From positions 124,001 through 188,000 of the forward strand of contig NZ_FZOB01000003.1 in assembly GCF_900188395.1 (NCBI RefSeq): a stretch of 64,000 bases of DNA, written 5' to 3'. Shown here in pieces: positions 4,184 through 10,504 of this stretch. This DNA comes from Desulfurobacterium atlanticum. GTDB taxonomy: Bacteria > Aquificota > Aquificia > Desulfurobacteriales > Desulfurobacteriaceae. Under the pieces are notes generated by a model. That model was not told where the DNA came from. It did no database searches and saw only the letters and a program-made list of their open reading frames with translations. The position numbers and the translations under genes are program-made. Each line of letters begins with the position of its first letter. Within the stretch, counting starts at the first letter, position 1.

Positions 4184-4775
4184 GTTTTTGATATTGGTGT
4201 TTTTAGTCGTTTTTGTTTCCGGATGTGCTTCTTTAAACCGTAAAGAAGCACAAACTGGCTATGTGAAAGTTTTTACAAAAGAGCCGATTAGACCGTGCAA
4301 AGTTGCTATTTTACCGTTTAAAAATGAGATAGAAAATGATGAGAATGCCGGAGAGAAAGTTGCCACTATTCTCTACTCTGGGTTTGTTTCTACCGGCGTT
4401 GATGTTGTTCTTCCTGGAGAAGTTAGGAAGCTGATGATAGGAAGGCATTTCTTTACATATCAGAATATTCCAGATACACTTCTACTTTTCCTGCGTAATA
4501 ATATGAGTGTTGGACTTGTTGTTACAGGGAGAGTAATAGAATATAAACCTTATGGGGGAGGAAGCCGGTATCCTGAGATAAGGGTCTGGATAGAGGGAAT
4601 AAGTACAAAAACTGGAAGAAGAGTTTTTACAGCCTACATAACTCGTCGGGGGGATGATTACAGGAAAATACTTGAATTTGGAGTTGTTAAAAGTATTGCG
4701 GAGCTTACATTTAGAGGAACCGATGAACTTATTAAAAAACTTCAGGAGGCCGGCATTAAATGTATAAAAGAATAG
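4170..4775 (+). CDS. Lipoprotein, paralogue-like LpoB/CsgG-type
   Basis: A 201-residue lipoprotein. The hydrophobic signal ends VSGC, a good lipobox, and the mature protein contains VAILPFKNEI, the same strand motif as VAVLPFMNLT in the protein at 2148-2777. It starts with TTG at 4170, giving MRSFKFL with the positive charges a signal peptide needs; a GAGG lies just upstream inside the preceding gene. It overlaps the preceding gene by 14 bases and the following PPIase gene by 16. Three proteins with this N-terminal strand pattern stand in a row here, which suggests duplication and a shared complex. The biochemical role is not known. Confidence 0.55.
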   Translation: MRSFKFLILVFLVVFVSGCASLNRKEAQTGYVKVFTKEPIRPCKVAILPFKNEIENDENAGEKVATILYSGFVSTGVDVVLPGEVRKLMIGRHFFTYQNIPDTLLLFLRNNMSVGLVVTGRVIEYKPYGGGSRYPEIRVWIEGISTKTGRRVFTAYITRRGDDYRKILEFGVVKSIAELTFRGTDELIKKLQEAGIKCIKE

Positions 4776-6487
4776 TCGTGCTTATGACAGGAATTTTTAT
4801 TCTCTTTTCTTCTTTTTCTTACGGGAAGGTTTCTTCAAATGATTGGCTTGTAAAAATAGGAAATAAAACTTATACAGTTAAGGATTTTCAAAATTGGTGG
4901 GATAACTGGAAAGTTGATGGTTCAAAGTTTCCAGAAACTCCAACACCTTTTATAGATTGGATGCTTCTTTTTGAAAATGGAACAGAACTTGGTCTCTATA
5001 AGTATCCTTCTTACCAGCAGAAGATAAGACAATTTGTCAAGGTACGCTCATTGCTTCTACTTCAAGGTGATACTCTTTCAGAAGCAAAGAATGTAACAGA
5101 TAAAGAGGTGGAGGAATTTTACAAGAAAGAGTATTTGCCACTGGAGAAGTTTCACATTTTCTACTTTAACGATAGAAAGACCGCTGAAAAAGCAAAAAAG
5201 CTTATAGATCAGGGTGTTGCTGATGGAAAAGTTCTGGCAGAAAGGTTAGGTATCAAAAATACGGATAATTTTGAAAGATTTACTAAATATATGCGTCCAT
5301 TTGATATCAAGGATATGAAGCAAAGAGGGATGCTTTTCTCGGCAAATAAAGGGGATGTTGTGGGACCTTTAAAGGATAAAGATAAGTGGCTTATAGTTAT
5401 AGTGGTTGATAAGACTTTTAATGATAACCGTAAGAAAGATTTTCTCAAAGCTGCAAAGGAAAAACTTATAAAAATACGGGAAGCACAGGCAACACAGCAA
5501 CTTCTTGATGAGCTTAAGAAAAAATATAAGGTTAAAATATATAAGGATGTTCTGGATAAAATCACGTCAGAGAATGTCCCTGAAGATATTAAAAATAAAG
5601 TTGTGCTTGAAGTTGGAAATTATGCCCTGACAGCCGGAGGTTTTGGGAAGTTTTTGAAGAAAGAGGTTGAGTGGCAGAAACATTCAAGATTTGGTAAAGT
5701 TGATATTAATGTGGCAAAGAAAAGAGTTGTTGACTCAATAATAAATCAAACTCTTGTTGGGATTGAAGCTATAAACAGACATTATGAGAGAAGAGAACCT
5801 TTAAAGTCTATGTATGAGTTTTACTGTCAGAATAGAATTATAAGGGAACTTGAGGATAGAATTATTAAGCCTCAGGTGAAAGTAACCGATAAAGATATAA
5901 AAAGGTATTATGAGCTTAATAAGGAAAAATACAGATTGCCAGATAAGGTTAAATTCAGATTTTTGCAGACTTCAGATAAGAAACTTATTGAAAAACTTTA
6001 TGAGAAAGTTAAGAAAGGTGCAGATTTTAAGAAAATGACCATTGATATAATGGGTTATGATAACGTTGTTACTGTTCCTTATAACAAGTTGTTGCCGGAA
6101 ACAAAAAAGGTGGTTGACAATTTAGAGTCCGGGGAGGTTTCTGCCCCTATTAAAATAAAAGATACATATTTCCTTCTCCAACTTCTTGAGAAGCATAGAG
6201 GGGAGTATAAGCCTTTAGCAGAAGTGAGAGAATCCATTGAGAAAGTTGTATGGGAAGAGAAATTTAAAAGAGCTAAAGAAGATTACGTTAAGAAGCTTTA
6301 TATGAATCTTCTTATGAATGGAAAAGAGATTAAAGTTAACTGGGATGTGTGGAATGAGATAGTTAACAGATACAAAAATAGAACCGAGTTTAACGGAAAA
6401 TATGCATTTTATCTTTTTCTGATTTCTTTAATGGGCTTATTTATAATTGGATATATTAAAGGAAGGGAGAAACAGAATGAGAGTTAA
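4760..6487 (+). CDS. Periplasmic peptidyl-prolyl isomerase with two parvulin-like domains
   Basis: A 575-residue SurA/PpiC-type foldase. It has a signal peptide (about 1-22), helical chaperone-like parts, and two parvulin-like stretches at about residues 110-235 and 380-485. The second ends in the familiar strand pattern VSAPIKIKDTYFLLQLLEK; the first has the weaker VVGPLKDKDKWLIVIVVD. A single hydrophobic helix near 548-566 followed by basic residues would anchor the C-terminus in the membrane, which is unusual for this family. AGGAGG at 4744-4749 precedes the ATG. Lying just before four secreted proteins, including three multiheme cytochromes, it is likely a dedicated folding helper for them. 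Activity of the first domain is uncertain. Confidence 0.7.
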   Translation: MYKRIVVLMTGIFILFSSFSYGKVSSNDWLVKIGNKTYTVKDFQNWWDNWKVDGSKFPETPTPFIDWMLLFENGTELGLYKYPSYQQKIRQFVKVRSLLLLQGDTLSEAKNVTDKEVEEFYKKEYLPLEKFHIFYFNDRKTAEKAKKLIDQGVADGKVLAERLGIKNTDNFERFTKYMRPFDIKDMKQRGMLFSANKGDVVGPLKDKDKWLIVIVVDKTFNDNRKKDFLKAAKEKLIKIREAQATQQLLDELKKKYKVKIYKDVLDKITSENVPEDIKNKVVLEVGNYALTAGGFGKFLKKEVEWQKHSRFGKVDINVAKKRVVDSIINQTLVGIEAINRHYERREPLKSMYEFYCQNRIIRELEDRIIKPQVKVTDKDIKRYYELNKEKYRLPDKVKFRFLQTSDKKLIEKLYEKVKKGADFKKMTIDIMGYDNVVTVPYNKLLPETKKVVDNLESGEVSAPIKIKDTYFLLQLLEKHRGEYKPLAEVRESIEKVVWEEKFKRAKEDYVKKLYMNLLMNGKEIKVNWDVWNEIVNRYKNRTEFNGKYAFYLFLISLMGLFIIGYIKGREKQNES

Positions 6488-7079
6488 TTTTTTACTATCC
6501 ACTTCTTTGTTTTTACTCTTTACAGGGATCTCCTATGCTGTTCCAGGAGGCGGTTTTAAAAGAGTTGTTTCAAAGAATGCTACAGATACGTTTAATCCGC
6601 AGGAAATAAAAGAGGAATTAACTTTTGAGTATATCCATATTCATGCTTTCGGTGATGGAAAGAACTCCTGTTTGTACTGCCATAAAACAGATTCACCTTC
6701 AAAAAAAGATGTTAAAAGGGTTTCAGGTGAGCTTGTCTGTTATGAGTGTCACAGAGAAGTGTATGAAAGGATAGATTCTCACCTTTATCATCATAAAAAT
6801 ATTAGGAACTGTGTGATGTGTCATGATCCCCATCAGAGTGATAATATAGCTATGCTTAAAGGGGATGGTATTACTGTTTGTATGAGATGTCATGCTACAA
6901 ATAAAGCCGGCTACTGTGTACATCCGCAGGGTGAAAAACATCTTGACCCGAGGAATGGACAACCTGTTACCTGCATCTCCTGCCATTTCACTATGGGGAC
7001 AGATTACAAGTATCTTTTAAAGAAAAATGGGGAGTCAGCGCTGTGCTATCAGTGTCATTCTCCAAAAAGGTATAAGTGA
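6477..7079 (+). CDS. Periplasmic hexaheme c-type cytochrome
   Basis: A 200-residue exported cytochrome with a signal peptide ending SYA near residue 19. Six CxxCH motifs are visible (CLYCH, CYECH, CVMCH, CMRCH, CISCH, CYQCH), arranged as pairs as in the doubled-CXXCH family. All six canonical motifs lie within the last 135 residues. Extra histidines that could serve as distal ligands (HIHAFG, DSHLYHHKN) lie among them. The likely role is electron shuttling in the periplasm between the inner membrane and the outer cytochromes encoded next door. The start at 6477 has GGAAGGGAGA upstream and overlaps the PPIase gene by 11 bases. Confidence 0.85.
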   Translation: MRVNFLLSTSLFLLFTGISYAVPGGGFKRVVSKNATDTFNPQEIKEELTFEYIHIHAFGDGKNSCLYCHKTDSPSKKDVKRVSGELVCYECHREVYERIDSHLYHHKNIRNCVMCHDPHQSDNIAMLKGDGITVCMRCHATNKAGYCVHPQGEKHLDPRNGQPVTCISCHFTMGTDYKYLLKKNGESALCYQCHSPKRYK

Positions 7080-7093
7080 TGGAGGCATTGATT

Positions 7094-7981
7094 ATGAAGA
7101 GATTGTTAACTTTTATATTTGTTCTTTTTTTTGCTTTACCCGTGAGGGCTGAGAATTTTAACTTTAAGTGGTATATGAGTTTAAAGAAAGATAAAAGAGA
7201 AAACTTTATGCGACAACCTGTTTTTATCACATTTTCTAACGATGGGAAAAAAGCCTATGTTGTAGATGCGAAAGGGAAGCTCTTTTCTTATACGGCAGAT
7301 TATGGAACTCCTGGTGCTGCATTTTTTGCTGCTAATGTCCTTGATAAGCCGATCGCTCTGGCAAAGATAGCATCCTCAGAAATAGCAGTGATTAATAGAG
7401 GCAGGAAAGAGTTAACCACTATAAATCTTAAAACCCGAAAGATAAGGAGAGTGAAGCTTCCGTTTATTCCCGGAGTTTTTTACTTTAAGAATGGTAATTA
7501 CTATATTCTTGATATGACTGCAGGAGATATAGCGGTTTTTGATAAAGATTTTAATCCTGTAAGAACCTATTTTCACGGAAAAAGGGACGGTTTTATAGAT
7601 TTTAAGATAAAAAGGAATAAACTTTATGCTCTTTCTCCTATCTCAAAGGAAGTAGTTGTTTTTTCTGTTCCTTCAGGAGATGTTGAAAAAGTGATAAAAC
7701 TTGACAGCGGAATGGAAAAGTTGCTTTTGCCAGTTTCTCTTGATTTGGATAAAGATGGTTATATTTATGTATGTGATAAAGTGGCAGGTAATATTAAAGT
7801 TTTTTACAAAGAGGGTGGATTTAAAACTGCTATTTTGAGTAAAGGACAGAAGAAAGGAGAACTTTACTATCCAAACTACATAGCTTTTGATAAATATGGT
7901 AAATTATGGGTAGTAGAAGAGGGAAACGGTAGAGTTGAAGTGTTTGATAGGGAAAGTGAAGATGGTAAGAGCAAAAAATAA
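7094..7981 (+). CDS. Exported NHL-type beta-propeller protein
   Basis: A 295-residue protein with a signal peptide ending VRA (about residue 19). The mature part shows repeated blade-like strands such as ITFSNDGKKAYVVD, VSLDLDKDGYIYVCD and IAFDKYGKLWVVEEGNGRVEVFD, typical of six-bladed NHL propellers. There is no catalytic motif; these proteins usually bind partners. GGAGG at 7081-7085 selects the ATG at 7094 over nearby GTG and ATG codons. It lies between two cytochrome genes and overlaps the next one by 20 bases. From memory, NHL/propeller genes also accompany OmcS-type cytochromes in Geobacter, which fits a role in secretion or polymer assembly. Confidence 0.7.
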   Translation: MKRLLTFIFVLFFALPVRAENFNFKWYMSLKKDKRENFMRQPVFITFSNDGKKAYVVDAKGKLFSYTADYGTPGAAFFAANVLDKPIALAKIASSEIAVINRGRKELTTINLKTRKIRRVKLPFIPGVFYFKNGNYYILDMTAGDIAVFDKDFNPVRTYFHGKRDGFIDFKIKRNKLYALSPISKEVVVFSVPSGDVEKVIKLDSGMEKLLLPVSLDLDKDGYIYVCDKVAGNIKVFYKEGGFKTAILSKGQKKGELYYPNYIAFDKYGKLWVVEEGNGRVEVFDRESEDGKSKK

Positions 7982-9125
7982 GATTATTTTAGGTATAGGG
8001 TTGGTTTTTTCAGGAGTTTTAAATGCTTTTGCAGTTTCCGGTCCGTGTGTTAACTGTCATACCATGCACAATATGCAAAATGGTGTTCCTGTAAATGCTA
8101 ACGGAACTCATCCTTTTCTGCTGAATACAGATTGTATAGGTTGTCATACAGGCACAAATACAGGAACAAATCCAACGCCGTACGTATTTTCAACAACTCC
8201 GCCTGTTTATAATGAAACGGGAACAGAGCCTGACACAAACACACTGGCCGGTGGGAATTTTTACTGGGTTAAGTTCGGGACAACTGCTTCAAATACTGCA
8301 GCTGATGAGTGTGGACACAATGTTGAAGGATTGACAAATCCGGATACCATTCTTTTAACGCCGCCGGGTTTTGATGGAACATTTTCAAACGCTGCAGGGG
8401 AAACAGTTGGTGGAGGGAGCTGGCCTGCCGGTCAGCAGGTTACCTGTGCCGGGCTCTACGGTTGTCACGGACACCACAGAGCAGGAGATGACAACTATAA
8501 GGGAATATACGGTGCTCACCACGGTAATAAAGGGAATGACAGTACTACAGCTTTAACAACGGCAGATACCGTAGGAAACAGCTACCGTTTTCTTCTTGGA
8601 ATTTACGGAATAGAAGACAGCGACTGGGAATTCAGGCCTACCCAAACAGAGCATAATCAATACTACGGTCAGGTTAGAGATTCAACAACTTTACTTGAGC
8701 CTTCAACTGCCGATAAGCATACTATCTCATACCTTTGTGCCGAATGTCACGGTTTTTACCATTCAGGTTCTGGACAGGTTTCTTCCAGTAATTACGGTGT
8801 TTCTCCCTGGTTGAGGCATCCCACCGACTTTGATATGACAGATGCTGTTGGTTCTGAATATCAGTATTATAACGGTGCGACAGACCCCACGAACGCTCCT
8901 TACAGCGTAGTAGCTCCTCTTGCTTCAAACGATTTAACTAAAGGGGTTCTTTCAACCGTTGATGTTTCTCAGGGCGGTATTGCAGGAACAGCGATTGTAA
9001 CATGTATTTCCTGTCACAGAGCACACGGAACTCCTTACGCTGATATTTTAAGATGGGATTTTAAAAACTGGCCCGGAAATAGTAAAAAGAGCGGGTGTAA
9101 TGTGTGCCACACCCAGAAGGATTGA
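7962..9125 (+). CDS. OmcS-like multiheme cytochrome (candidate nanowire subunit)
   Basis: A 387-residue exported c-type cytochrome; the signal peptide ends AFA at residue 24. Five canonical motifs are CVNCH (29-33), CIGCH (58-62), CAECH, CISCH and CNVCH. A sixth, atypical CX5CH motif lies at 162-169. Landmarks follow Geobacter OmcS in order as I remember it: CHTMHN after heme 1, a GG-F-WV segment, a GHN histidine, heme 3 followed by a histidine-rich stretch, YRFLLG, an LRHP segment after heme 4, CHRAHG at heme 5 and a final heme near the C-terminus. OmcS polymerises into extracellular conductive filaments, so that is the inferred role. The start at 7962 lies inside the preceding gene with only a weak ribosome site; GTG at 7956 is an alternative. 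Confidence 0.75.
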   Translation: MVRAKNKIILGIGLVFSGVLNAFAVSGPCVNCHTMHNMQNGVPVNANGTHPFLLNTDCIGCHTGTNTGTNPTPYVFSTTPPVYNETGTEPDTNTLAGGNFYWVKFGTTASNTAADECGHNVEGLTNPDTILLTPPGFDGTFSNAAGETVGGGSWPAGQQVTCAGLYGCHGHHRAGDDNYKGIYGAHHGNKGNDSTTALTTADTVGNSYRFLLGIYGIEDSDWEFRPTQTEHNQYYGQVRDSTTLLEPSTADKHTISYLCAECHGFYHSGSGQVSSSNYGVSPWLRHPTDFDMTDAVGSEYQYYNGATDPTNAPYSVVAPLASNDLTKGVLSTVDVSQGGIAGTAIVTCISCHRAHGTPYADILRWDFKNWPGNSKKSGCNVCHTQKD

Positions 9126-9151
9126 TTGTCGGTTTTGTTTGGAGGACCTTT

Positions 9152-10504
9152 ATGAGACTTGAAATATTGTTTTTAATTTTAATCTTTTCAGGTACATCTT
9201 ATGCTGGTTCCTATTTACAATCTGCCCACGGCAACGCCACCTACGGAGTAAACAGAAACTCAATGTCAGGATACTCAACAGGAAACTGCGACCACTGCCA
9301 CGAAATGCATGCAAGCCAAAACGGAATAGAGCCAACACCCCAGAACGGCTCTCCATCCCCATTTGCCCTATTTGCACCAAACTTCAACACTGCAAAAACA
9401 GTTAATCCATACACTCTATCAGACAACTACTGCTTCTACTGCCACTCAACAACAACAGACGGTTCTGTTCAAGTAGGAGGAATAGACAACAAAAACTTCA
9501 GCGCCACATTTGGAGGTTACACCACCCCAAGTGCAACAAGCATATATCAAATGTTCAACCAGGCATCCTACCACAACCTTTACGACCTTCACCAGTTTGC
9601 CCTTGGAAATGCAGGAAGCACAACACTTCCATTTAACACATTTTACAAACAACAATCAAACCCCTGTGATACCTGCCACAACCCCCACATAGTAAGAGCA
9701 AACAAAAGAAATGTATCAGACCCGACATACACACCACTTTCAAAACCATCGGACCACAATAACCTCTGGGGAGACGATGCAAACGAAACCCTTGCAGCCC
9801 TTACAAATGCCTACCAGCCGCCTTACTACTACGGTTCAACCACAACATTTGAACCTGACGGAGCTGCCGATACCCCATCAAATCAGGCAGCAAAGATGCC
9901 CGACTACATAACCTACTGTACAGACTGCCACAACACGGTAAATAAGATTTACAGCACTACTCTTGGAAGGGAGCTTTATGAGATAGATTGGTTTTCAAAC
10001 AGTGGAGATAAGCACGGATTCAGGGTTGCGGACTCAGATGTAGGGGTAGGTGATACAAACACAGCTTCTTTAAAACCTCCTTACGATGGCAGTCCGATAG
10101 CCAATGCAAACGGAGCAGGATTTGTTTTATCCTGTATGGACTGTCATGAGGCTCACGGTTCTCAGAATCTTTATCTTATAAGAGAAGAGATAAACGGGAA
10201 AGAGCTTGGTGATGGTGTTCAGCTTTATGATGGGAATCCTGTAATAACCACTGACAATGAGATATACAAAGCCTGTGCTAACTGTCATTTACATGATTCT
10301 GGGGATGCTGCTTCGTGGCGAGATATTCATCATACTATGCCAGATGCACCGTATCAGGGAGACTGCTACTGGAGATGTAGCTGGTGTCACGGGACTATAG
10401 GATACGGTGATAACTGTTTCCTCTGCCATTTCCACGGAAGTGATGATAGTGCTATTTTAAATACAGGAAAACCTGAATGTTATACTGAAAGAAGGACTTT
10501 TTGA
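9152..10504 (+). CDS. Exported octaheme c-type cytochrome
   Basis: A 450-residue cytochrome with a signal peptide ending SYA (about residue 18). Eight CxxCH motifs are present: CDHCH, CFYCH, CDTCH, CTDCH, CMDCH, CANCH, CSWCH and CFLCH. The long asparagine/proline/tyrosine-rich linkers resemble outer-surface multiheme proteins. GGAGG at 9141-9145 precedes the ATG. The codon style changes inside the gene: hemes 1-4 are all written TGC CAC at their CH, while hemes 5-8 are mostly TGT CAT/CAC, with the shift near 9950. It is probably an electron-transfer partner, or a second filament-forming cytochrome, next to the OmcS-like protein. I cannot assign it to a named cytochrome. Confidence 0.8.
   Translation: MRLEILFLILIFSGTSYAGSYLQSAHGNATYGVNRNSMSGYSTGNCDHCHEMHASQNGIEPTPQNGSPSPFALFAPNFNTAKTVNPYTLSDNYCFYCHSTTTDGSVQVGGIDNKNFSATFGGYTTPSATSIYQMFNQASYHNLYDLHQFALGNAGSTTLPFNTFYKQQSNPCDTCHNPHIVRANKRNVSDPTYTPLSKPSDHNNLWGDDANETLAALTNAYQPPYYYGSTTTFEPDGAADTPSNQAAKMPDYITYCTDCHNTVNKIYSTTLGRELYEIDWFSNSGDKHGFRVADSDVGVGDTNTASLKPPYDGSPIANANGAGFVLSCMDCHEAHGSQNLYLIREEINGKELGDGVQLYDGNPVITTDNEIYKACANCHLHDSGDAASWRDIHHTMPDAPYQGDCYWRCSWCHGTIGYGDNCFLCHFHGSDDSAILNTGKPECYTERRTF

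Follow-up and report, generated by a model that had tools for sequence, protein, structure and literature searches.

Does a cytochrome of Desulfurobacterium atlanticum, in which the third of six heme motifs reads CX5CH in place of CxxCH, carry a heme at that site, and if so, what attaches it? We investigated the gene and its surroundings in a window of 64,000 nucleotides (the whole stretch of DNA that was analysed, positions 124,001 to 188,000 of contig NZ_FZOB01000003.1). On balance the site probably holds a real sixth heme c, with more residues than usual between its two cysteines, and the organism's ordinary System II synthase probably attaches it.

The motif, its protein and its gene neighbourhood

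The reading frame starts with an ATG at 7962, stops at 9125 on the forward strand and encodes 387 amino acids with a signal peptide. The motif C162-AGLYG-C168-H169 is encoded at 8445-8468 (+) by TGT GCC GGG CTC TAC GGT TGT CAC, exactly as the initial annotation had read it, and the five other heme motifs of the protein are canonical (CVNCH, CIGCH, CAECH, CISCH and CNVCH; Table 1). Pfam and NCBIfam returned weak, general multiheme matches only, and an AlphaFold model calculated from six alignment rows reached a pLDDT of 31 and was not used.

Table 1. Features of the cytochrome gene and of its conserved neighbours, in window positions.
Feature	Position	Strand	Basis
Parvulin-type peptidyl-prolyl isomerase (PPIase), conserved neighbour	4760..6487	+	Pfam Rotamase_2 6e-21; synteny
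Six-heme doubled-CXXCH cytochrome, conserved neighbour	6447..7079	+	Pfam Paired_CXXCH_1 8e-23; synteny
NHL-type beta-propeller protein, conserved neighbour	7076..7981	+	Pfam NHL 7e-7; synteny
OmcS-like, putatively six-heme, secreted c-type cytochrome with CX5CH, 387 aa	7962..9125	+	Sixth heme c predicted from sequence
Heme 1 motif C29VNCH33	8046..8060	+	Invariant
His36 of CHTMH, candidate axial ligand to neighbouring subunit	8067..8069	+	Family-invariant; analogy with OmcS
Heme 2 motif C58IGCH62	8133..8147	+	Translation and family alignment
His119 (GHN), candidate distal heme ligand	8316..8318	+	101/102 family, 14/14 OmcS-like
CX5CH C162AGLYGC168H169, OmcS heme 3 position	8445..8468	+	Translation, alignments, survey
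His186-His187 (GAHH), candidate distal heme ligands	8517..8522	+	102/102 family vs 0/14 OmcS-like
Heme 4 motif C259AECH263	8736..8750	+	Translation and family alignment
Heme 5 motif C348ISCH352	9003..9017	+	Translation and family alignment
Heme 6 motif C379NVCH383	9096..9110	+	Translation and family alignment
Eight-heme cytochrome, conserved neighbour	9104..10504	+	Synteny; fused to CX5CH cytochrome in L007 and L066

A single-sequence phmmer search of the PDB with the cytochrome gave no match. A profile built from six relatives matched OmcS, the six-heme nanowire cytochrome of Geobacter sulfurreducens (PDB 6EF8/6NEF), at E=3.6e-19, the next chain following at 0.003. The alignment of this profile with 6EF8 spans positions 38-361 of 379, brings hemes 1, 2, 4 and 5 together in order, and sets CX5CH opposite 'HCSSCHDPHGKYRR', the third CxxCH (heme 3) of OmcS, so that the heme 3 placement proposed in the initial annotation proved right; heme 6 is aligned in a wider MAFFT alignment. 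The six Cys...CH sites, five of them canonical and one CX5CH, thus stand in the order of OmcS.

The initial annotation had further described the difference from OmcS as a change of three whole codons, after which all following hemes align. The following hemes do align, but the change itself may be read in two ways. At heme 3, OmcS has CxxCH followed by DPHG where the window cytochrome has CX5CH, and alignment programs place H169 on the histidine of the OmcS-type DPH. Since the first cysteine lies equally far from the H-G in OmcS (C-SSCHDP-HG) and in the window cytochrome (C-AGLYGC-HG), the CH may have shifted three residues downstream, without an insertion of three codons. OmcS-type proteins and the CX5CH family have the histidines of CHTMH, GHN, RHP and RAH in common, whereas the GAHH pair is present in the CX5CH family and absent from OmcS-type proteins. 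Judged by its sequence, the cytochrome is a remote homologue of OmcS that belongs to a sister clade and is not OmcS proper, as its third site is not CxxCH. In OmcS one axial histidine comes from the neighbouring molecule (PMC6584659); by analogy, His36 of CHTMH, invariant in the family, is predicted to be free for coordination in the next subunit, and we infer that the window cytochrome may form filaments.

The gene order Ig-like, lipoprotein-like, PPIase, multiheme, NHL, OmcS-like and eight-heme cytochrome recurs, whole or in part, in many of the Desulfuromonadia loci that we fetched. Operons with a beta-propeller protein, two large cytochromes and a PPIase were described by Skennerton 2017 (PMC5539420), and an oet cluster with an OmcS-like gene by Murali 2023 (PMC10553843). 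Both belong to bacteria that partner ANME and are extracellular-electron-transfer operons. Like the window, they group a PPIase, a beta-propeller protein and multiheme cytochromes with an OmcS-like gene, although they contain 16- and 26-heme cytochromes where the window has a 6-heme homologue. By gene content the window operon resembles these clusters. The CX5CH cytochrome and its eight-heme neighbour are also found fused in proteins of 703 or 728 residues (L007:489-2597 and the 728 aa ORF of L066, respectively). The eight-heme neighbour itself (9104-10504; also L110, L111, L112, L121, L123 and L132) has a C-terminal tail conserved among distant bacteria, mostly [RQ][RK]TF at the last residue, which is possibly a sorting or export signal.

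Distribution and origin of CX5CH

All surveyed genomes of the host genus encode CAG[LV]YGCH, once as CAGLYGCH (in G003 as a fragment) and again in a second paralogue with CAGVYGCH. In D. atlanticum this second copy (L004; G000:C12:50027-51346) is 52% identical to the first and adjoins an NHL-like gene. None of the 57 genomes surveyed outside the host genus contained a match. More distant relatives come from a Desulfuromonadales MAG, where the motif is CAGTYGCH, and from a Desulfobacteria MAG whose two copies read CAGENGCH and, as a CX12CH, CSGGGGTGGGSRGCH. In profile surveys, matches at E<=1e-8 turned up in 70 of the 244 genomes examined from the class of L006 (Desulfuromonadia), a tally that includes OmcS-type proteins. 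The class of L008 gave matches in 17 of 192 genomes, and the phylum of L008 in 34 of 395 at E<=1e-30; all 27 new best matches of the phylum sample were CX5CH. Taxa were assigned from the titles of L005, L006 and L008 and from the classes searched around them. One further sequence, L007, was recovered from a Methanosarcinales MAG, on a contig of 3.3 kb that may have been misbinned, and no other genome among 295 of that phylum matched; we do not claim the family for archaea.

CX5CH, with the consensus C[AST]GxxGCHG, is found in 101 of the 139 non-redundant ORFs of the family, CX12CH in one, and another arrangement in 37. The motif had been called rare in the initial annotation, which is true of c-type motifs in general but not of this family, where it is the majority form. 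Its recurrence across these sequences is far beyond chance. The orthologues, whose comparison had been proposed, kept CX5CH, and CxxCH at the site was not found in them. An aligned set of 116 sequences contains 74 with a single CX5CH site and 23 two-site sister paralogues, whose first site ranges from CX1CH to CX6CH and whose second is CxxCH. Paralogues with seven motifs (L117, L118, L078, L079, L082 and L139-L141) have a hypervariable first site, CX1CH-CX6CH, followed by CxxCH, and at many loci they stand in tandem with a CX5CH paralogue.

When the alignment columns between H119 and H186, which include the site, were left out of the tree, a single branch (SH-aLRT 95) set the CX5CH and CX12CH sequences apart from all others, and the OmcS-type proteins formed a clade of their own. 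Under the history we propose, the motif would have arisen once, in the ancestor of a clade that now occurs in Desulfurobacteriaceae, Desulfuromonadia and Desulfobacteria.

Probable heme binding and attachment at the third site

In the proposed mechanism C162 and C168 would bind the third heme covalently and H169 would be its proximal ligand, a fixed A-G-x-x-G loop between the cysteines replacing the usual two residues. C168 and H169 are present in all 75 sequences of the CX5CH clade, at a median pairwise identity of 0.38, and so is the first cysteine, in one case by way of CX12CH. Constancy of this order, with no more than one exception, is seen in only 42 of the clade's 315 well-filled columns, the heme ligands among them. 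G164, G167 and G170 are invariant, and the loop therefore has a defined form. OmcS-type relatives carry CxxCH at the corresponding place, and the sister paralogues carry CX1CH to CX6CH there with a second site, CxxCH, after it: the spacing varies and the Cys...CH arrangement stays. Outside the heme motifs, H36, H119, H186, H187, H231, H286 and H355 are essentially invariant, which, on the alignment, is enough candidate distal ligands for six hemes. This pattern of conservation fits a working heme site and not decay after the loss of a heme.

An alternative explanation is that the heme hangs on a single thioether through C168, with C162 free or in some other role. The C168-H169 pair is indeed the fixed half of the site, kept in 102 of 102 family sequences, while the first cysteine lies between 1 and 12 residues away across the family. 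However, a first cysteine is found in every sequence checked at the site. If it were dispensable, the fixed A-G-x-x-G loop of the CX5CH clade would go unexplained, and a single thioether is therefore unlikely.

The heme may, alternatively, be attached covalently by a cytochrome c synthase dedicated to CX5CH, much as CcsA1 serves CX15CH in Wolinella. In the System II organisms that have been characterised, CX15CH and CXXCK each have a synthase of their own, NrfI in the case of CXXCK (PMC12285233), SirEFG serves CX12NKGCH (PMC6976685), and an altered spacing of the cysteines leads System I to a faulty product (PMC3601427); tolerance of CX5CH by a synthase is therefore not a given. In addition, two congeners have an extra CcsA-like gene (a third PF01578 gene), which in one of them is located about 9 kb from the cytochrome. 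However, this extra gene is absent from the genome of D. atlanticum, in which a single CcsB (ResB) gene stands beside a single CcsA gene, and a single HemX gene neighbours hemA and hemC; the extra gene also occurs in relatives that lack the cytochrome. Among 20 Desulfuromonadia genomes checked, five with CX5CH (G204, G186, G200, G123 and G121) have one ResB locus each and those without CX5CH have one or more, and a ResB-like gene stands near the cytochrome only once among the neighbourhoods checked. With a single CcsB-CcsA pair, ResB loci that are not more numerous alongside CX5CH, and an additional CcsA-like gene that is not confined to genomes with the cytochrome, the special lyase that the initial annotation thought might be needed is not indicated, and we regard a dedicated synthase as improbable. 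One congener also carries a pair of small ResB-like and CcsA-like genes (L137:1924-3301) that is absent from the genome of the window.

A third possibility, also raised in the initial annotation, is that the site has lost its heme, leaving a five-heme protein in which the remaining cysteines and histidine are structural. The motif does not match CxxCH, standard searches count five hemes only, and invariant cysteines and histidines could in principle serve another role. Nevertheless, C162, C168 and H169 are kept over 75 divergent sequences, heme motifs, canonical or with another spacing, stand at the homologous sites, and the invariant distal histidines would suffice for six hemes. Loss of the heme is thus not supported, and we consider it very unlikely. 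A sequencing or assembly error, finally, is practically inconceivable as the cause of CX5CH and is refuted by orthologues with the same motif in independent genomes and by the second paralogue.

We therefore retain, as the most likely reading, a sixth heme c on an expanded loop, attached by the ordinary CcsB-CcsA synthase of System II. With the C-terminal 'CH' half of the motif unchanged, the synthase would tolerate the wider gap.

Precedents and significance

An expanded loop between heme cysteines is known from another nanowire cytochrome, OmcZ, whose heme 1 is bound via a loop of 14 residues (PMC9473688). OmcZ is, however, an unrelated protein; its loop is longer, belongs to a different heme position and lies at the subunit interface. 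No paper with 'CX5CH' or 'CXXXXXCH' was found in the open-access literature searched. A recent study (PMC12545173, Nature 2025) counts motifs as CX2-5CH and describes a sister clade of OmcS that includes DA_402 of Desulfurivibrio alkaliphilus and is extracellular and predicted to polymerise. DA_402 has seven predicted motifs there, as do the two-site paralogues of the CX5CH family, and the sister clade, matched by its description, is probably the wider family studied here. Both the family and a permissive count, CX2-5CH, were thus already known; in the parts of that paper available to us we found neither a discussion nor a description of a conserved CX5CH signature.

We lean somewhat towards the broader view that CX5CH represents a true heme c attachment signature not described before, [LVFI]-T-C-[AST]-G-x-x-G-C-H-G, which has become fixed in a single large clade of OmcS-like cytochromes, and that one general System II synthase would handle all the spacings that the family shows at this position, CX1CH to CX12CH, by recognising the CH half and tolerating a first cysteine that moves. 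If the ordinary CcsB-CcsA does attach the heme, then the family, with its spacings from CX1 to CX12 at a single position, offers a natural series in which to test which features a cytochrome c synthase recognises. Cytochrome surveys commonly count hemes by CxxCH, and several of those consulted here say so: Murali 2023 (PMC10553843) found cytochromes by a CxxCH word search, and PMC12545173 recognised outer-membrane multiheme cytochromes by CXXCH. Such counts would miss one heme in each member of the CX5CH clade. With CX5CH as a sequence signature, OmcS-like extracellular cytochromes can also be traced beyond Geobacter, in this case into the Desulfurobacteriaceae.
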